A stretch of DNA of 38,957 bases from a virus: IMG/VR virus record IMGVR_UViG_3300037129_000078, positions 1 through 38,957 of that record, one strand, 5' to 3'. A program made the position numbers and the translations under genes. Each line of letters opens with the position of its first letter. Positions within the stretch are counted from its first letter, which is position 1. Positions 9,552 to 38,957 of this stretch are shown one piece after another. The notes beneath the pieces are model-generated. The model was not told where the DNA came from. It searched no databases and was given only the letters and a program-made list of their open reading frames with translations.

Positions 9552-9764
9552 TTATTTTCCTTTGTTCCTTTCTTCAATAACACATAAACGATCATGAAAA
9601 TCTTTTATTTCGTGTTGAATTGCTTTTATAATTTGATTTACTTCTTTACGATGATCTTCTAATTTTTTATCAAGATGTAAAAAATCAGATCTAGCTTGTC
9701 TTGTTGCCCAAAGAAATAATGCTAAATTGCCGCCTAATATAGTCATAACTTGTGACCAATCCAT
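9552..9764 (-). CDS. Small membrane-anchored coiled-coil protein (paralogue of 34089-34268)
   Basis: 70 residues from the ATG at 9764 (MDWSQVMTILGGNLALFLWA). This start is chosen because AAGGAG stands 7 bases upstream, whereas a longer start 15 codons upstream would lie within the leader and promoter. Residues ~5-21 form a transmembrane helix; the rest is a charged amphipathic helix (LDKKLEDHRKEVNQIIKAIQ) ending KDFHDRLCVIEERN. The 59-residue product at 34089-34268 shares MxWxQVxTI, the transmembrane region, KDFHxRLCxIEERNK and the 5' leader. A sigma70 promoter lies at 9787-9814. It is transcribed against the late genes, like a moron. Holin-like, exclusion or membrane-tethering roles are all possible and none is shown. 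Confidence 0.75.
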   Translation of the reverse strand: MDWSQVMTILGGNLALFLWATRQARSDFLHLDKKLEDHRKEVNQIIKAIQHEIKDFHDRLCVIEERNKGK

Positions 9765-9786
9765 ATTTTTCTCCTTTTTACCAACT

Positions 9787-9814
9787 ATTATATCAGAAGA
9801 TATATTCAAGTCAA
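9787..9814 (-). promoter_or_regulatory. Sigma70-like promoter for the small membrane protein gene
   Basis: On the minus strand, TTGACT (9814-9809) and TATAAT (9792-9787) are separated by 16 bases, 22 bases upstream of the ATG. The bases after the -10 (AGTTGG then AAAAAGGA) match those of the paralogous gene at 34.27 kb. Confidence 0.7.
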
Positions 9815-9834
9815 GACATATGAATTAATTTACA

Positions 9835-10080
9835 CTATAACGTGGGCGGTGTTTTCTTATTAATAAGCTTTTCTATCATATCTTCGAGGTCAAATAGGGC
9901 AATACGATGGATTTCAGCCTTTGCTATTCGATAGCTAGACTTCTTTCCGTAGCCTACTTTAAAGGCGCTGATACGCCCACTTTTGATAGCACGTCTAACA
10001 GTATTATCATGAATTCTGAGCAAAACAGCGAATTCTTTTATCGTTAAAAACTCTTTTTGATTGTCACCGATAGTGTCCAT
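9835..10080 (-). CDS. Excisionase-family helix-turn-helix DNA-binding protein
   Basis: 81 residues. Residues 10-55 (FLTIKEFAVLLRIHDNTVRR, AIKSGRISAFKVG, YRIAKAEI) follow the HTH_17/excisionase winged-helix pattern: a helix-turn-helix, a basic AIKSGRI turn and a wing. The ATG at 10080 has GAGG five bases upstream. It is divergent from the large fibre gene at 10201. An imperfect inverted repeat (10092-10129) lies in the intergenic region just ahead of it and could be its own operator. No complete integrase is present, so a role as a transcription regulator is as likely as true excisionase activity. Confidence 0.75.
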   Translation of the reverse strand: MDTIGDNQKEFLTIKEFAVLLRIHDNTVRRAIKSGRISAFKVGYGKKSSYRIAKAEIHRIALFDLEDMIEKLINKKTPPTL

Positions 10081-12919: not shown

Positions 12920-13480
12920 GTGAGCCAAGCAGGAATTATCAGTACTTCAGGTGGTCCTCCTCCTCCAACGGTAGCAACAAGTTATGTAACTCAAAATGGA
13001 ACAGCGGTACCAGCAGCTAATATTCTTATTGTCAATGCTTTTGACTCAACTGAAAACAATGACAATGGAATAATCACTAAAGGTGGTGTTGTAGGGACAG
13101 GAACAGCCAATGAAGTAGATGTTATTATAACAAACAGAGTTACTGGATCAATCACTACGATTGATGCTGCGCAAACGGCAATGCTTGCTTTTACATTTCC
13201 AACTCTTGGAGTCTATACTTTCGATGTAAATATAGCCTGTTTCAACACTACAGATGTTTTAGGGTCTGGATTCTCAATATTCTTCGGTGTTAGAAGTACT
13301 GGAGCTGCGGCTACATTGTTAAATCTTGAAGATAAGATTATCAATCCTGAAGTTGGTAATACTGCTTGTGATGTATCAGTTGGAACTCTTGGTAATTCTG
13401 TTATCATATTTGCTTCAGGAATAGCAGGTAAAACGATTAATTGGAATGCTGTTGGTACTTATGTATTCGTGGGGGCATAA
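12920..13480 (+). CDS. Tail-fibre protein with C1q/TNF-like C-terminal half (tentative)
   Basis: 186 residues starting at GTG 12920; AGGTGG lies directly upstream and the nearby ATG (12918) meets an immediate stop. The N-terminus has a Pro-rich linker (STSGGPPPPTVATSYVTQNG) and the fibre motif TAVPAANILIVNAF, which recurs as TATPALNILNVLGG in the gene at 14614. The C-terminal ~110 residues alternate hydrophobic strands (LAFTFPTLGVYTFDVNIACF ... VIIFASGIAGKTINWNAVGT), like C1q/TNF-type jelly-roll tips of trimeric fibres. The stop is directly followed by the ATG of the next fibre gene. A receptor-binding or fibre-tip role is inferred. Confidence 0.6.
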   Translation: MSQAGIISTSGGPPPPTVATSYVTQNGTAVPAANILIVNAFDSTENNDNGIITKGGVVGTGTANEVDVIITNRVTGSITTIDAAQTAMLAFTFPTLGVYTFDVNIACFNTTDVLGSGFSIFFGVRSTGAAATLLNLEDKIINPEVGNTACDVSVGTLGNSVIIFASGIAGKTINWNAVGTYVFVGA

Positions 13481-14614
13481 ATGGCTGGTTTTAACAATGA
13501 AGTTGTCTACGGATCCAATGTGGATTTTTCTGGTGCCGCTCATGCTTCTCCAACTATTACAACTAATGGTCAACTTCTTATCGGATCCACAACATTAAAT
13601 GTTGGTGGAACTCATATCAACGTAGGCACATTAACATCTCCGGATGGTAGCGTTACAATTGGTTATTCTTCTCCTAATATTACTTTAAAATCCTCGGGTG
13701 GTATATCCGGTCCTGGATCAAGTACTGTAGGAGATATCGTACTTTGGAATAATACAACAGGCTCTCTTGTTTCAGATGCTGGTTTCGGATTTCCTTTAGG
13801 TCCAACTCATGGAGGGACTGGGCAAACTTCTTATACTACTGGAGATATTCTTTACGCTTCCGCATCAAATATTCTAAGCAAATTATCTTTACCTACAATT
13901 CCTGGAGTAGATCTCCATTATAACGGAACAAATGTTACATACTTTAATCCATTACAAGAAGCAAGAATGTATGAAGATTTTTATGGAACAGGAGTAAATA
14001 TAGGAACTTATGCGTGGAGAACGGGATCAACGGGCGGAGCAGGGGCTGCAGTAAGTCCCAATCCAGGAGTAGATAGCGCACATCCTGGTACGGTACAATT
14101 AATAACAGGGACAAGTGCTGCAGGAACAGCTTACATTCAAATGGGTAGTAATGGTACTGGAAATCCCTTAATAGTGGGAGGCGGTGCCATAACATTTATT
14201 TGGGTTATAAAATTAAGTAATCTTTCTGATGGAACTAATACATATCAAGTCAATATCGGCTTAACAGATAGAACTAATGCTTCAGCGCCTTTTTATGGAA
14301 TTTATTTTTTTTATAATGATACTGGAGCTCTTCCAAATTGGTACAGAGTTACAAATAACGCAGGAAGTATAACTCAAACAGATACTACAGTAGCTGCAAA
14401 TACAAACTGGACAACATTACGTGTAGACATTAACGCTGCTGCTACTTCTATAACATATTATATAAATGGTGTAAATGTTGGATCAAATGTGGCAAACATT
14501 CCTACAAATAGTCTGTCACCTTATTTAAATATAATTCAGAGTGCAGGTGCATCTTCAAGAAGCTTAACATCTGATTTATTTTATTTTTATCAAAACCTAA
14601 CGGCGGCAAGATAA
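13481..14614 (+). CDS. Receptor-binding fibre protein A with lectin-like C-terminus
   Basis: 377 residues. Residues 1-67 (MAGFNNEVVYGSNVDFSGAA ... GYSSPNITL) are closely matched in the next gene and probably form the shared attachment module. Residues ~100-140 carry a common fibre motif (HGGTGQTSYTTGDILYASAS). From about residue 165 the sequence looks like a concanavalin-A/LamG-type jelly roll: EDFYGTG, FIWVIKLSNLSDGTNTYQVN, NWTTLRVDINAAATSITYYI, then NGVNVG and a final DLFYFYQNLTAAR. Such domains bind glycans. It ends TAATG, overlapping the paralogue at 14614. Confidence 0.75.
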   Translation: MAGFNNEVVYGSNVDFSGAAHASPTITTNGQLLIGSTTLNVGGTHINVGTLTSPDGSVTIGYSSPNITLKSSGGISGPGSSTVGDIVLWNNTTGSLVSDAGFGFPLGPTHGGTGQTSYTTGDILYASASNILSKLSLPTIPGVDLHYNGTNVTYFNPLQEARMYEDFYGTGVNIGTYAWRTGSTGGAGAAVSPNPGVDSAHPGTVQLITGTSAAGTAYIQMGSNGTGNPLIVGGGAITFIWVIKLSNLSDGTNTYQVNIGLTDRTNASAPFYGIYFFYNDTGALPNWYRVTNNAGSITQTDTTVAANTNWTTLRVDINAAATSITYYINGVNVGSNVANIPTNSLSPYLNIIQSAGASSRSLTSDLFYFYQNLTAAR

Positions 14615-15915
14615 TGGCTGGATTTAACAACGAAGTTGTATATGGATCAAATGTAGACTTCTCAGGAGCTATACATGCTGCTCCCACCATTCTAACAAAT
14701 GGTCAGCTTATTATTGGAACTACAGCTTTAAATGTTGGTGGAACTCATATCAATATTGGTCAGCTGACATCACCTAATTCAACAATAACAATTGGATATT
14801 CTTCTCCTAATATTACTTTATCAGCAGCTGCAACTATTGCAACAACATATCAGGCAGATTCGGGTACAGCTACTCCAGCATTAAATATATTAAATGTTTT
14901 AGGCGGTCCTGGAATAGTAACATCAGGTTCAGGAAATACAATAACAATCAACTCATTTTCATATCAAAATTTAGGTATATCTTATAATGCTGGAACAGGT
15001 GTTTTTACAGTTTTAGGAGGTAATGGAAGTGCATTAAGCGCATCAAATCCTGGTTTCGTATTTCTACAATCAAAAACTGCAGGATTAATAAAAAAATATA
15101 CGATAACGGCAAATCAATCTTTTATCGATGATAATGGCGCATCTCAAATTATTGGAAATTTATTTGGATTAACAGCAGGAATTGCACAAGCTTTTACTGT
15201 CCCATTCTTTATATATGCTGTAGCTGATGATACAGAAACTACTATAGCTTTCATGATATCTAGATATCCTAATAGTCCTATCTCTCCAGTTGCTGCTAAA
15301 ATTGGTAAATCTGGGTCAGCAGTAGCAGATAATCAAGGCAGCTTTTTTAGTTTAGCCAATATCACAGTCGCAGATTACGAATCAAATCCTTGTTTGAGCA
15401 TTGGATCATTTAGAATGACAATGTCAACGTTGAATGATTGGACTGTTACAACTTTAACAAATCAAGACGGTATTGGACAATTTCAAGATGGTCAAGAATT
15501 TTTTGTTTCTTTAAATCAATTTGGTGCTGCTTCAGGATCACATTTTTACGCAAATGGTGGAACCGCACCTCAGTTTACGAATAATGCTCAAGGATATTAT
15601 ATTTCACTTGATAACTTTGTAAAAGTATTTGGTGTTTGGAGCGTTGTTACTGTTAACGGAGCAGGAGGAGTAGCACTTTTACAGGCAATTCCATATCTTG
15701 TAGATGGATCATGTGTAGGATGCGGAAATATTTTAGATAATGCTGGAAATGTATTTGTCACTAGTCCAAATATTTTAGCACCACCACCTACAAATAAAAT
15801 TCAATTTTACGCTGTAACAAATGGTGCTGCCGGTGGTTACACAAATGGAAATGTAAGTGGTGCAGGATTTGGATTAAATTCTTTTATAACAGGTTTTATT
15901 TCATTTGTTTCTTAA
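14614..15915 (+). CDS. Receptor-binding fibre protein B (paralogue with a different C-terminus)
   Basis: 433 residues. The first ~67 residues repeat those of fibre A with few substitutions but many synonymous base changes, so the copies are not recent. Residues ~72-110 hold a second fibre motif (YQADSGTATPALNILNVLGG). From ~125 to the end the protein is unrelated to fibre A: a beta-rich domain with ADDTETTIAFMISRYPNSP, FVSLNQFGAASGSHFYANGG and a Cys pair in GSCVGCGN. It overlaps fibre A by one base and ends convergently, overlapping the leftward gene at 15896 by 20 bases. Different tips on one anchor suggest two alternative or co-assembled receptor specificities. Confidence 0.75.
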   Translation: MAGFNNEVVYGSNVDFSGAIHAAPTILTNGQLIIGTTALNVGGTHINIGQLTSPNSTITIGYSSPNITLSAAATIATTYQADSGTATPALNILNVLGGPGIVTSGSGNTITINSFSYQNLGISYNAGTGVFTVLGGNGSALSASNPGFVFLQSKTAGLIKKYTITANQSFIDDNGASQIIGNLFGLTAGIAQAFTVPFFIYAVADDTETTIAFMISRYPNSPISPVAAKIGKSGSAVADNQGSFFSLANITVADYESNPCLSIGSFRMTMSTLNDWTVTTLTNQDGIGQFQDGQEFFVSLNQFGAASGSHFYANGGTAPQFTNNAQGYYISLDNFVKVFGVWSVVTVNGAGGVALLQAIPYLVDGSCVGCGNILDNAGNVFVTSPNILAPPPTNKIQFYAVTNGAAGGYTNGNVSGAGFGLNSFITGFISFVS

Positions 15916-27489: not shown

Positions 27490-27717
27490 TTACCTGGTTT
27501 TCCAAAAATCAACATCATAATTATTATTAAAAAAATTATTTATAATAATTGAAGTTATAACTGTCGTTTTTTCAAGTTTCATTATCTTAATGCAATACTG
27601 ACATGTTTTTCCGCTACGAATTTTAATTTTTCCAATTTTTTGATGTATTTCCAATTCATGACACCTGCATAACAATTTCTCATTACTATTTGAAAAAGGA
27701 ATGAGATTTCTGATCAT
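27490..27717 (-). CDS. Small Cys-containing hypothetical protein
   Basis: 75 residues. A CRCHE segment and a TCQYCIK segment supply four cysteines, spaced like a zinc site (LLCRCHELEIHQKIGKIKIR ... GKTCQYC). It overlaps the stop of the upstream membrane-protein gene (ATGA at 27714-27717) and ends six bases before the zinc-ribbon gene. The Asn-rich C-terminus (IIINNFFNNNYD) is low complexity. Coupled position supports it as real; no family recognised. Confidence 0.5.
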   Translation of the reverse strand: MIRNLIPFSNSNEKLLCRCHELEIHQKIGKIKIRSGKTCQYCIKIMKLEKTTVITSIIINNFFNNNYDVDFWKTR

Positions 27718-27944
27718 TTCTTAGAATCCTTAAGAAGATCATAGAATTTCTTGTTGGTTTCTTCTTGCATTTTCATAAAAGTTTCATATAGCTGATCAAT
27801 GCGTGAAGCGTGACCATCTAGTCGATTGCTTAAACCATCAACGCGAGTCCCGAGACTTTTAATGTCATTATCAAGTTTGTTGATCATGAACACCATAAGA
27901 GTTCCTAACACACCAATGATTGTAAAAACTTCCTGCCAATTCAT
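27714..27944 (-). CDS. Small membrane-anchored coiled-coil protein
   Basis: 76 residues. MNWQEVFTIIGVLGTLMVFM provides an N-terminal transmembrane helix, followed by a heptad-like helix (NDIKSLGTRVDGLSNRLDGH, ASRIDQLYETFMKMQEETNK). The layout matches the proteins at 9552-9764 and 34089-34268 (M-x-W start, membrane helix, charged helix), but detailed similarity is limited to the first 15 residues. AAAGGA precedes ATG 27944. It is divergent from the large terminase. Possible holin-like or envelope-attached role, not shown. Confidence 0.65.
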   Translation of the reverse strand: MNWQEVFTIIGVLGTLMVFMINKLDNDIKSLGTRVDGLSNRLDGHASRIDQLYETFMKMQEETNKKFYDLLKDSKK

Positions 27945-34026: not shown

Positions 34027-34062
34027 AAGAAAATTATCTCGTACTTCTCCTTCATACGAGTG

Positions 34063-34090
34063 CCGCGGACTATAGATCCGCGGTTTTTTT
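34063..34090 (+). terminator. Strong intrinsic terminator
   Basis: CCGCGGA (34063-34069) and TCCGCGG (34077-34083) form a 7-bp stem followed by seven T (34084-34090). It ends the scaffold transcript and touches the stop codon of the leftward gene at 34089. Confidence 0.85.
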
Positions 34091-34268
34091 ATTTCACTTT
34101 ATTCCTTTCTTCAATCGTACACAGACGTCCATGAAAATCTTTCATTTCATTTTTCATTTCTTCTATAAGTTTAGTAACATACAGAAAATCTGCTCGCCTT
34201 TCTCGCATACACCATAAAATCATGGCAAAATTAGCTGCTATAATCGTTAAAACTTGAGCCCATTCCAT
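34089..34268 (-). CDS. Small membrane-anchored coiled-coil protein (paralogue of 9552-9764)
   Basis: 59 residues, ATG 34268, stop 34089-34091. MEWAQVLTIIAANFAMILWC is a transmembrane N-terminus; the rest is charged helix (FLYVTKLIEEMKNEMKDFHG) ending RLCTIEERNKVK. It is about half identical to the 70-residue protein at 9552, lacking 11 residues of the helix, and shares the promoter-proximal sequence. AAGGAAG precedes the ATG, and TTGTCA-17-TATAAT lies 22 bases upstream. It has its own promoter and opposes the late genes, which suits a moron-type gene. Confidence 0.75.
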   Translation of the reverse strand: MEWAQVLTIIAANFAMILWCMRERRADFLYVTKLIEEMKNEMKDFHGRLCTIEERNKVK

Positions 34269-34289
34269 AATTCTTCCTTTTTTCCAACT

Positions 34290-34318
34290 ATTATATGTCT
34301 AATCTGTAATGCTGACAA
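34290..34318 (-). promoter_or_regulatory. Sigma70 promoter overlapping the tRNA-Thr 3' end
   Basis: Minus strand TTGTCA (34318-34313), 17-base spacer, TATAAT (34295-34290). The -35 lies within the tRNA-Thr acceptor stem. This is the best -10 in the window; downstream bases match those at 9.78 kb. Confidence 0.75.
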
Positions 34319-34382
34319 TAGGAATTGAACCCATAACCGTCCGATTACAAGTCGGGTGCTCTACCAATTGAGCTATGTCAGC
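34310..34382 (-). tRNA. tRNA-Thr (anticodon UGU)
   Basis: A full cloverleaf: acceptor GCTGACA/TGTCAGC, D-stem GCTC/GAGC, anticodon loop CTTGTAA (anticodon TGT, reads ACA), T-arm ATGGG-TTCAATT-CCTAT. The 27-43 pair is a mismatch. No CCA is encoded. It follows tRNA-Asn by four bases. Confidence 0.9.
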
Positions 34383-34386
34383 TTAT

Positions 34387-34458
34387 CTCCGAGTAACGGA
34401 TTCGAACCGCTGACCAAGAAATTAACAGTTTCCTGCTCTACCTCTGAGCTAACTCGGA
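34387..34458 (-). tRNA. tRNA-Asn (anticodon GUU)
   Basis: Cloverleaf with acceptor TCCGAGT/ACTCGGA, D-stem GCTC/GAGC, anticodon loop CTGTTAA (anticodon GTT), T-arm AGCGG-TTCGAAT-CCGTT and discriminator G, usual for Asn. Its first 21 nt are also the last six codons and stop of the integrase-like gene. Confidence 0.93.
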
Positions 34459-34995
34459 ATATTGTAATTCATTTATATATGTTTGCATAACCTTTAAAGG
34501 ATGATTTTCAAAATTTAATCCTTTTTTTAAAGCATACGAAATAGAAGAAGATGCATAAGCAAATATTTTTCTTAAGGTACTAGTAGACATTTTTCTTTTA
34601 GAATTTTCTGTTTTTGCTCCTCTAAATACATCGCAAGTGCACAATTTTTTCGCTGCATTTACCCAATCTTCAAAGGAAATTTCATGAAGAAATTTATTTT
34701 TCCCAAATATTTCACATAACCTATTTTTTGACATATTCATATCAGAGATAGCTTTTCTATTACATTCTGGGATAGTACTTATTTTCATTTCAAAAACTTG
34801 TTGTAATGTAATTCTATCAGACAGAGGAACCTCAAAATTCTTCATGTTATCAATAAGTCTTTCTTTATACCAAATATACATTTTAGCGTCTTCTTCATCA
34901 AAAAACGTTTTACATACATCGATATCTTTTCTTCTGATGTTAACACTATAAGTAATTTCGCCTGTTCTAGAGATTCTTTTTCTAATGTTTGCCAT
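34438..34995 (-). CDS. Tyrosine-recombinase-like protein lacking the catalytic domain
   Basis: 185 residues. Residues 1-55 match the arm-type DNA-binding domain of phage integrases (MANIRKRISRTGEITYSVNI, then KTFFDEEDAKMYIWYKERL), and residues ~58-172 match the SAM-like core-binding domain, ending in the typical STSTLRKIFAYASSSISYAL followed by KKGLNFENHPLKV. The catalytic domain (R-K-H-R-H-Y) that should follow is missing. Instead the frame runs into tRNA-Asn: its last codons (SELAQR, then TAG) are tRNA nucleotides 1-21. It overlaps the helicase gene by 14 bases, so the two form an operon. It could be a DNA-binding regulator or a degenerate integrase fused to the tRNA. Confidence 0.7.
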   Translation of the reverse strand: MANIRKRISRTGEITYSVNIRRKDIDVCKTFFDEEDAKMYIWYKERLIDNMKNFEVPLSDRITLQQVFEMKISTIPECNRKAISDMNMSKNRLCEIFGKNKFLHEISFEDWVNAAKKLCTCDVFRGAKTENSKRKMSTSTLRKIFAYASSSISYALKKGLNFENHPLKVMQTYINELQYSELAQR

Positions 34996-36319
34996 TTTGA
35001 TATTCCAATTTTAATTTATGATGCCAAATCAAAAAACTAGCTTCGTCAATAGTTATAGGATGTTGAAAATAAATATTATTATCTTGTAAATAATCAATCA
35101 TACAGGGTAAGGCTTCAAAATCTTGAATTCTAATAGTGTCAAAAAAATTAACTTTTTCTATTACAAATTCAGAAATTTTAATGATTTCTTTACTTATATG
35201 ATTACGAATATCTCTGATTGATGAAAAAGATTGCATTTCAGGATAATCTTCATCCACTAATAAACTATTAAAACCAGATAGATTTTTATGATTGTCTACA
35301 ATATCAATGATTTTACAGTTTTTTTTACCAGGAAATTTTCTTAATCCTCTTCCAATCATTTGACTAAAAAGAGCCTTACTTTTAGTAGGTCGAGCTAAAA
35401 TAACTCCATCTATAGATGGTTCATCAAAACCTTCTGTTAAAAGTTGGCAATTGCAAATCACTGAAACTTCATCATTTCGAAAAGATGATAGTAAGGATTC
35501 TCTTTCAATTTGTGTTTTTTTACCATCAATATGAATAGAACATATTCCGTTATCATTTAATAGTTTGTTTATTTTTTTACTATGATCAACATTTACACAA
35601 AAAATTATAGATTTTCGATCTTTCATGTCATTTTTAATGATATCTTTTATCATATTATTTCTATCATCTGTGTTTATCTTAGAATAAAGATTTTTTAGAC
35701 TAAAATCTCCGTTATGGTCATCAACATCAGAAATATCTATATTAGTTTTAACAGAATATCCTTCGATATCTGAAAGATGTCCTTGTTCTATCAAGGTTTC
35801 AATATTTAGTTTAAATGAGCATTTAACTAAAATTTCATCTAATAATTTTCCATCAATTCGATCAGGTGTCGCTGTAACACCTAAAATTAACATGTCTCTT
35901 TCATGAAAGATATCACTTCTTTTTCTTATAAATCGCTTATATGATTCAGATTGAGTGTGATGAGCTTCATCAATAATTGTGAGATCGAATTTTTGATGTA
36001 TAAGAGACTCTAAATAATCTCCACGAATGCTATTAATAATGCATATGTGAACTTTGTTCGGAAATTCATCAAATCGATCTCCTTTACGAGAAATTTCGAA
36101 GGGTTCATAAAATTTTAAAGCTGTTTCATATACTTGATTTAACAATTGTTTAGATGGAACGATGATTAAAATCCTATTATGATATTTTTTTGCATAATAA
36201 AAAAAAGTAACCGTTTTTCCAGAACCTGTAGGCATTTCAATATATTGGCGAAAATATCCTTTAAAAGTTTGATGGATTTTTTCTACTGCTTCAAGCTGAT
36301 AAGGTCTAAGTGCAATCAT
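34982..36319 (-). CDS. SF2 DEAH-box helicase
   Basis: 445 residues with all core SF2 motifs: Q-like LRPYQLEAV (4-12), motif I MPTGSGKT (29-36), II DEAH (117-120), III GVTATP (147-152), V TEGFDEP (295-301), VI QMIGRGLR (320-327). The order and spacing resemble RadD/YejH-like and UvsW-like helicases; there is no nuclease, RecQ zinc or HNH domain. The C-terminal ~90 residues are unassigned. A branch-migration or recombination role alongside the exonuclease and RusA is plausible; a defence or anti-defence role is the alternative. It is the first gene of a leftward, visibly AT-richer cassette between scaffold and capsid genes. Confidence 0.88.
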   Translation of the reverse strand: MIALRPYQLEAVEKIHQTFKGYFRQYIEMPTGSGKTVTFFYYAKKYHNRILIIVPSKQLLNQVYETALKFYEPFEISRKGDRFDEFPNKVHICIINSIRGDYLESLIHQKFDLTIIDEAHHTQSESYKRFIRKRSDIFHERDMLILGVTATPDRIDGKLLDEILVKCSFKLNIETLIEQGHLSDIEGYSVKTNIDISDVDDHNGDFSLKNLYSKINTDDRNNMIKDIIKNDMKDRKSIIFCVNVDHSKKINKLLNDNGICSIHIDGKKTQIERESLLSSFRNDEVSVICNCQLLTEGFDEPSIDGVILARPTKSKALFSQMIGRGLRKFPGKKNCKIIDIVDNHKNLSGFNSLLVDEDYPEMQSFSSIRDIRNHISKEIIKISEFVIEKVNFFDTIRIQDFEALPCMIDYLQDNNIYFQHPITIDEASFLIWHHKLKLEYQNGKH

Positions 36320-36389
36320 AATCCTCTAATGACATTCAATTTGGAATATCATAATCGGATTCATTATATTCATCAAATGAAATTTCAGT

Positions 36390-36417
36390 TTGACAAATTA
36401 AACTTTTATTTTATATA
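36390..36417 (+). promoter_or_regulatory. Consensus promoter for the major capsid gene
   Basis: TTGACA (36390-36395, perfect -35) with TATATA (36412-36417, spacer 16) or TATACA (36414-36419, spacer 18). It gives a ~135-base leader before ATG 36560. Confidence 0.7.
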
Positions 36418-36419
36418 CA

Positions 36420-36559
36420 GAGGTTTCGCCAGTCCTGCGTTATGGGCACATAGCGTAATGGGTGATCGCAATCCCAACCAGATATGATCGAGAACTGACG
36501 TAATTAGGCTCGTCTACCGATCGTCATGTCATATTAACATACAATCCAAGGTGATTGCT
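36420..36559 (+). promoter_or_regulatory. Structured capsid leader with leader element, copy 2
   Basis: The leader contains CGCCAGTCCTGCGTTATGGGC (36427-36447), whose core repeats that at 33337-33349, followed by a partial echo (GCGTAATGGG, 36453-36462). GACG/CGTC and GATCG/CGATC arms lie further on. Ribosome site AAGGTG is at 36548-36553; the GTG within it is not the start. Confidence 0.5.
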
Positions 36560-37540
36560 ATGTCGATTACGACTACTGGAAATTTGGGACCTATGATCCT
36601 CCAGAGTTTAGCTCCTGCTATGCTCTATGTCCCAACTCCAACGATGAATTACATTACTGTATGCGACAAAGTGTCGATGCCGCCAAATGGTGGTACTACA
36701 TGTCGTTTTATGAGGCCACGTGCCTTAACACCCCCAACCGTTCAGTTGGGCAACTCCGGTATTGATCCTCCAGCCCAAGTGCCACAAAGAGACATCATTG
36801 ATGCTCAAATGGCATTCTTTGGTACTGGCTGTATCATTAACGAACAAGTTATTTTGCAAGACCAAGAAGGCGTACTCGCTTGGGTATCTGAGCGTCTAGC
36901 TGTTGCGATGAGACAAGCTGAAGATTTGATCTTACGTGACTATATCGTTTCTGCTGCATCTACTATCAATGCTGGTGGTGGATCTAATGGTTTCAATCCT
37001 ACTAACTTAGGTATATCCGATTTTAGTTTGGTTGCTACTACATTAGATACTAACAATGCTTACAAATTTATGTCAGGCATTGAAGGTATGGACAGATTCG
37101 GTACAGGTCCTGTACGTTCAGCCTATTTTATGTTGAGCTCTACAGAGTTGCAATCAGACTTTGATGCTTTAGTTGGATCTGGATTCCTATCACAATGGAA
37201 CTACCCAACAAATGCATCAGCTCTACCTAGTGAATATGGATCTGTTTACAACATCCGTATCTTAACTAGCTCGGAAGCACCTGTTGCACGTAATGCTGCT
37301 ATTAACAACGTTGGTACTACCAATGATGTTTATTACAATACTGTATTGGGTAAGCAAGCTCTAACTCATATCAATCAGGATGGATTCTCCATGAACCTGA
37401 TTTATAGAGATCCCTACTATTCTGGAATGCTTGCACAGAACGCTACTTTGGCAGTTAAGTTTGCCCAAGCACAAGCGATTACGCAAGATACAGCGATTAG
37501 AAACCTATTAAGCACACGCTTAAGCAACTTGGGAGTATAA
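36560..37540 (+). CDS. Major capsid protein, N4-gp56-like family
   Basis: 326 residues from ATG 36560 (MSITTTGNLGPMILQSLAPA); a GTG three codons earlier is part of the ribosome site. Residues ~35-130 follow the N4-gp56 type HK97-fold capsid pattern: TTCRFMRPRALTPPTVQLGN (N-arm and E-loop region), QMAFFGTGCIINEQVILQDQ, and LAVAMRQAEDLILRDYIVSA (spine helix), then TINAGGG. Later strands include GPVRSAYFMLSSTELQSDFD and IRILTSSEAPVARNA. It has its own consensus promoter and long leader, consistent with the most abundant virion protein, and comes after a scaffold-like gene. The GroES-like protein may help it fold. Confidence 0.88.
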   Translation: MSITTTGNLGPMILQSLAPAMLYVPTPTMNYITVCDKVSMPPNGGTTCRFMRPRALTPPTVQLGNSGIDPPAQVPQRDIIDAQMAFFGTGCIINEQVILQDQEGVLAWVSERLAVAMRQAEDLILRDYIVSAASTINAGGGSNGFNPTNLGISDFSLVATTLDTNNAYKFMSGIEGMDRFGTGPVRSAYFMLSSTELQSDFDALVGSGFLSQWNYPTNASALPSEYGSVYNIRILTSSEAPVARNAAINNVGTTNDVYYNTVLGKQALTHINQDGFSMNLIYRDPYYSGMLAQNATLAVKFAQAQAITQDTAIRNLLSTRLSNLGV

Positions 37541-38732: not shown

Positions 38733-38957
38733 ATGCCATCAGTGGGAACAGTAATATCATTTCCCGTCCCTTTATATGCGAATTTGCCGATTGAATCACA
38801 ATTCTATCTGCCAAGTCGTTTTGTGATATCTGCTGTAACTCTTGGTGCAACAACTACAGTAACAACTACTGTAGATCATAATTATGTTATCGGTCAGTTG
38901 GTTAGATTGCTAATTCCACCAAGTTTTGGATGCCGGCAATTAAATGAGAGATCGGGG
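38733..38957 (+). CDS. FCCH-like virion protein, 5' part (gene continues at base 2)
   Basis: The gene starts at ATG 38733 after a GGAG ribosome site at 38724-38727 and runs off the window end. Across the circular junction it continues to the stop at 329-331, giving 142 residues. It opens with MPSVGTVISFPVPLYANLP. The central part (start ...FVISAVTLGATTTV, then a VDHNYVIGQLVRLLIP stretch) looks like the small beta domain often annotated as the ubiquitin-E1 FCCH domain in phage virion proteins; the gene upstream at 37543 carries a similar segment. A terminator at 38695-38720 separates the two. It lies between the capsid and head-completion genes, so a decoration or head-tail role is inferred. 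Confidence 0.75.
   Translation, partial: MPSVGTVISFPVPLYANLPIESQFYLPSRFVISAVTLGATTTVTTTVDHNYVIGQLVRLLIPPSFGCRQLNERSG
38831..38957. repeat. Terminal direct repeat, right copy
   Basis: Exact copy of bases 1-127. Both copies lie inside the coding sequence of the same 142-residue protein. A packaged terminal repeat of this size is possible, since T7-like phages carry them, but nothing else in the sequence argues for one here. Confidence 0.95.

Follow-up and report, generated by a model that had tools for sequence, protein, structure and literature searches.

A stand-alone N-terminal half of a phage integrase encoded behind a RadD-like helicase, with a possible role in targeting it

Analysis of a complete circular phage genome of 38,957 nucleotides (the window; its bases 1-127 are identical to 38831-38957) and of its relatives recovered a two-gene cassette, in which a RadD-like SF2 helicase is followed by a stand-alone protein corresponding to the N-terminal half of a tyrosine-recombinase integrase (the half-integrase). 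Judged as a whole, anatomy and pairing together with the targeting mechanism, the explanation in which this protein targets or loads the helicase is moderately probable. Taken separately, the anatomy of the half-integrase locus and its pairing with the helicase are held with high confidence, while the mechanism, in which the half-integrase would recognize DNA and bring or load the helicase there, is put forward tentatively. The pair is conserved and apparently undescribed so far, with keyword matching in open-licence papers recovering no description of it. The features on which the analysis centers are as follows:

34027..36550, no strand: insertion hotspot from the 218-aa gene to the major capsid gene, spanning 2524 bp in the window and some 150-3400 bp in relatives
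34310..34382, minus strand: tRNA-Thr(TGT), the next gene downstream (ARAGORN; Rfam 71.8 bits)
34387..34458, minus strand: tRNA-Asn(GTT) (Rfam RF00005 66.8 bits; ARAGORN 34386-34459)
34438..34995, minus strand: half-integrase ORF, 185 aa, second gene of the cassette, ATG start and TAG stop
34441..34827, minus strand: core-binding (SAM-like) domain and final helix, residues 57-185, defined by VIA-align matches
34828..34995, minus strand: arm-binding-type domain, residues 1-56, a three-stranded sheet and helix, aligned to full integrases at their N-terminal end
34982..36319, minus strand: RadD-like SF2 helicase, 445 aa, first gene of the cassette (Pfam ResIII 4.8e-27, Helicase_C 2.1e-16)

Relatives were recovered via the phage portal gene and via the helicase gene; single-sequence searches found no relative of the half-integrase in viral contigs or named phages, and no portal relative among named phages or plasmids. 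The half-integrase family assembled in this way comprises 22 loci, namely the window and 21 non-redundant relatives in other viral contigs, and the existence of these conserved homologues indicates that the 185-aa ORF is a real gene. As a separate observation, the terminase has a relative (38% identical, E 4e-80) in the Chlamydiae MAG K1000_chlam_2 (L169 / L204), which is a weak hint of either a chlamydial host or a phage contig binned with this MAG.

The sequence-only reading of this stretch had held that the ORF bears the arm-binding and core-binding domains of a phage tyrosine recombinase and then stops, and profile and structural comparisons bear this out for the core-binding domain, with an arm-type domain being probable. 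Pfam provided no match for the half-integrase of the window, and in PHROGs its residues 5-168 matched phrog_1, an integrase family 611 positions long, over positions 113-254 (E=3.2e-4); 11 of the 22 members recovered this family, with a best E of 1.3e-11. The core-binding family PF13102 was matched in three of the 22 (best E 1e-4). A profile-profile comparison with hhalign of the family against three full-length integrases (from Acinetobacter phage TRS1, Pseudomonas phage PAJU2 and Rothia phage Spartoi) gave a probability of 97.6 and an E of 3.3e-12, with the alignment beginning at residue 1 of the full integrases and stopping at residue 168 of the window protein, ahead of the catalytic domain. 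The place where similarity ends is thus the core-binding boundary, in agreement with the earlier description. An AlphaFold2 model built from the 22-row alignment had a mean pLDDT of 94.5, and displays the succession E3-8, E14-22, E25-31 and H34-54 in residues 1-56. Foldseek by itself found no PDB match for the half-integrase at E<=0.001, and the fold assignment is based on a second look with VIA-align and on viral models. In the VIA-align comparisons the core-binding domains of integrases can be superposed on residues 58-185, among them 3lys (Z 12.1, 103 residues, 2.5 A), Tn1549 Int (Z 11.6) and the lambda Int core-binding domain 2oxo (Z 9.8). The full lambda Int chain 1z1b aligns over residues 1-180 with Z 11.0, but at an rmsd of 11.9, and residues 1-56 alone give Z values of about 5 to several unrelated beta-alpha folds and are not distinctive by fold. 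As judged from these profiles and the predicted structure, the half-integrase is an integrase-derived protein with a core-binding domain and a probable arm-type domain, and without a catalytic domain. Separately, an 84-aa ORF containing only the arm-type part was noticed directly before the terminase in a relative that lacks the helicase (L027:5885-6139, plus strand), and may be a remnant or an even more reduced version.

The absence of the catalytic domain, also claimed earlier, holds for the entire genome: beyond the TAG the frame reads into a tRNA gene, and no match to PF00589 was found at E<=10 anywhere in the complete window. Given that the genome is complete and circular, the missing domain does not simply lie beyond an edge. 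The same search detected no PF00589 domain in 47 portal relatives or in 27 records chosen through the helicase and its partner (74 in total, some of them fragments), and was positive in 14 of 14 control genomes. These results bear on the idea of a split integrase, in which another protein, such as a host Xer recombinase, would contribute the catalytic half in trans to complete an active recombinase. The arm-type and core-binding domains are indeed intact and confidently folded in the predicted model, but with the catalytic half absent from the phage and the relatives searched, and with the linkage to a helicase left unexplained by such a scheme, it is very improbable. Genes of this type are easily labelled 'integrase' and read as evidence of a temperate lifestyle; as a complete phage and 47 relatives lack a recombinase catalytic domain, that deduction would be wrong here.

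The 3' end of the ORF overlaps the tRNA-Asn gene in precisely the manner first described: positions 34458-34438 (TCC GAG TTA GCT CAG AGG TAG) are nucleotides 1-21 of the tRNA and at the same time the final six codons of the ORF plus its stop, in frame from tRNA position 1. From this junction it had been proposed that a resident integrase lost its catalytic domain by deletion, its remaining frame becoming joined to the tRNA gene that served as the attachment site, and both the termination of the ORF within tRNA-Asn and the loss of integrase similarity at the core-binding boundary would fit such an event. However, the other 21 members of the family are naturally of the same kind, with the 22 lengths spanning 172-198 aa, aligned end to end and ending at the same domain boundary, and 20 of the 21 have no tRNA at this place; naturally short homologues devoid of a terminal tRNA are what the sequence-only reading had itself named as speaking against its proposal. 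Among the 22 loci, the 800 nt downstream contain a tRNA only in the window and in L091 (IMGVR_UViG_3300050821_019977, 38,839 bp), with just 609 nt available in L095. L091 is the nearest relative of the window, with the helicase 59% and the partner 51% identical, and has the same order of helicase, half-integrase (182 aa versus 185 aa in the window) and tRNA-Asn, yet its ORF ends in a TAA stop 8 nt ahead of the tRNA. Nor is a catalytic domain present in any relative, whether after this boundary and ahead of a tRNA or elsewhere in its record, with an integrase being absent from all 47 and 27 records searched. A deletion origin is hence hardly credible, having been ruled out by the natural short homologues.

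The best reading of the available sequences is that the overlap with tRNA-Asn is incidental, probably a small shift of the stop codon beside an existing tRNA at an insertion hotspot, as suggested by the stop in L091 preceding a tRNA-Asn in the same order. The original stop of the ORF would have been lost or shifted, such that the frame now runs to the TAG of the tRNA D-loop with a tail altered by a few residues. The exact frame is by itself weak evidence of anything more, because an ORF entering this tRNA-Asn meets a stop within it in two of the three frames, here at the D-loop TAG, which is a near-universally conserved feature of tRNA genes. The tRNA-Asn beneath the tail of the ORF is intact and complete according to both ARAGORN and Rfam. 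Since the window and L091 copies are clearly alike upon alignment, the tRNA-Asn may have travelled together with the cassette. The overlap has a potential consequence for expression: RNase P cuts tRNA precursors at tRNA position 1, and if it does so here the half-integrase mRNA loses its stop codon. Going by the coordinates and established tRNA processing, any given transcript would then serve either as mRNA or as tRNA precursor, not both.

The gene context links the half-integrase to the helicase. The stop of the helicase and the start of the half-integrase overlap by 14 nt in the window (34982-34995), and an operonic overlap of 8-152 nt is seen in 19 of the 22 loci, the remainder having gaps of 1-2 nt (two loci) or 51 nt (one locus). 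Distances among the partners correlate with those among the helicases (Mantel r=0.80, with none of 9999 permutations reaching as high a value), indicating co-divergence. Across 43 whole records the helicase occurs in 8 and a full half-integrase in the same 8, with neither in the other 35 (among which is L027, the record with the 84-aa arm-only ORF), a figure inflated by the fact that five of the 8 were chosen by the helicase search; within the portal clade alone both genes are found in 3 of 38 records and one alone in none. Of 40 loci whose helicase gives a full-length profile match to that of the window, 25 carry the partner and 15 are without one, as against 2 of 67 loci with the partner for the remaining helicases. 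The nearest helicases recovered from bacterial genomes, Chlamydiae included, have different neighbor genes. The helicase itself possesses an SF2 core with RadD motifs, its residues 2-351 matching RadD (6jde) with E=6.9e-47. This similarity ends at residue 347-351, leaving the last ~95 residues unmatched, and the protein scores 161 bits against the RadD equivalog, for which the cut-off is 720, so that it falls outside full-length RadD.

The cassette is mobile with respect to its surroundings. In the window it reads leftward in the interval bounded by a structural 218-aa gene and the gene for the major capsid protein. The half-integrase of L018 occupies this site too, in the same orientation and without a tRNA; the cassette lies between the terminase and portal genes in L025, and elsewhere in L017 and L091. 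The interval from the 218-aa gene to the capsid gene also gathers tRNAs, as in L063, where alignment shows a tRNA-Thr nearly identical to that of the window right after the same 218-aa gene, and such a hotspot accounts for how tRNAs and cassette came to abut. The sporadic presence of the cassette (3 of 38 portal-clade records) implies that any role it has is non-essential, rather than that of an essential part of replication. An accessory gene would be expected to show just this sporadic, position-variable distribution in an insertion hotspot, and this raises the prospect of interference or defense, with the half-integrase binding the core sites of rival elements or host Xer sites and blocking or destroying them together with the helicase. 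PADLOC, however, matched the helicase only through its generic core and gave no match to the partner; we regard this explanation as improbable.

Several other observations were made on these genomes. The major capsid gene is uninterrupted in the window (36551-37540), and in many relatives it is broken by out-of-frame insertions (L014:12580-13400, L019:13340-13582, L010:15894-17044 and L023), several of which have common edge sequences; a group I intron is present in one (L014:13024-13282, Rfam, 85.1 bits), and the insertion in L019 matches no Rfam family. Three short leftward genes of the window (9552-9809, 34089-34270 and 27714-27944, all minus strand) show a similar N-terminal pattern, and the regions of the first two, 77% identical over 90 nt, look like paralogues, possibly holin-like. 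A gene at 9835-10080 (minus strand) is HTH_17/excisionase-like (Pfam 3e-11, phrog_2907 8e-8), in a genome that has no integrase. Two adjacent genes open with copies of a 208-nt repeat (13480-13687 and 14613-14820, 77% identical), resembling duplicated genes for tail- or receptor-type proteins.

Related proteins of 210-379 aa, encoded next to more distant RadD-like helicases of other viral contigs, suggest what the short form might do. Two of these (L115 and L119) have a Cro/CI-type HTH after the core-binding part (HTH_3, under the Pfam curated cut-off), and two others (L145 and L131) have C-terminal ends that appear similar by eye. Residues 14-148 of L115 match Pseudomonas phage integrases (E 5e-8), with the similarity ending before the HTH part; in these distant partners an HTH_3-like domain sits where an integrase would have its catalytic domain. 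Such an arrangement speaks for DNA binding by the short form as well, and the earlier suggestion that it was retained as a DNA-binding protein is plausible. It is conceivable that these proteins represent a wider class with an HTH in place of the catalytic domain, and that the pair is a two-protein phage system, with an integrase deprived of its catalytic half serving as the sequence-recognizing subunit of a RadD-like helicase, a generalization we offer with reserve.

The same HTH domains are compatible with the main rival explanation, that of a recombinase-derived transcription regulator, a repressor or activator of phage genes or of its own operon, with the helicase merely co-transcribed. 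A precedent exists in MrpR, a DNA-binding, catalytically dead repressor of the tyrosine-recombinase fold (PMC10516654), whose structure (8a0a) is among the core-binding matches of the half-integrase (Z 7.0, 96 aligned). Against this stand the strict coupling to the helicase in both occurrence and divergence, the location of the gene downstream of the helicase rather than divergent from it, and the failure to find a repeated operator in the window, and we view a purely regulatory role as unlikely, if less so than the other alternatives. Likewise, there is no obvious origin-like repeat array in the window, and no conserved DNA motif was found near the cassette. An inverted motif, TTGATATTCCAA, at 34997 and 36341 was considered as a binding site and rejected, since its count is near expectation (15 sites at up to 2 mismatches versus 11.3 expected) and it is not shared by relatives.

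In the preferred reading, the half-integrase would be a DNA-recognition subunit that brings the helicase or translocase to specific sites or junctions in the phage's own (or a rival's) DNA, and the C-terminal ~95 residues of the helicase, absent from RadD, could form the docking part. RadD is a RecA-dependent accessory that accelerates RecA strand exchange (PMC8887467); given this activity and the presence of a lambda-exonuclease-family gene in the phage, the setting would most likely be recombination-linked DNA processing, similar to the joint action of RadD and RecA.

Comparison with known systems helps to delimit what is distinctive about the pair. In tRNA-dependent lysogeny and the use of tRNA attachment sites (PMC10865867), a phage tRNA gene is likewise found near an integrase-like gene, but this lifestyle needs an active integrase, whereas the present phage is without one and its tRNA-Asn is complete. 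Tyrosine-recombinase integrases such as those of lambda, Tn1549, PAJU2 and TRS1 share the core-binding domain with the half-integrase, and probably also the arm-type N-terminal domain, by profile and structure; the latter differs in having no catalytic domain, in standing alone and in being helicase-adjacent in all 22 loci. With RadD (YejH), an SF2 DNA repair helicase (PMC8887467), the resemblance is in the helicase core of the partner gene. The distinct C-terminal residues and the sub-threshold equivalog score set the phage helicase apart from it. To our knowledge, RadD has no integrase-like partner. MrpR/YopR of the Bacillus prophage SPbeta (PMC10516654) is similar in being a recombinase-derived, catalytically dead phage DNA-binding protein, binding by the half-integrase being predicted. 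MrpR retains the whole tyrosine-recombinase fold (320 residues in the PDB chain), in contrast to the arm-type and core-binding parts alone of the half-integrase, and the match begins at residue 2 of MrpR, with no arm domain aligned. We also know of no helicase partner of MrpR. If the pairing is functional, the DNA-binding half of a recombinase would have been reused as the guide of a helicase, a proposition testable with two small genes.
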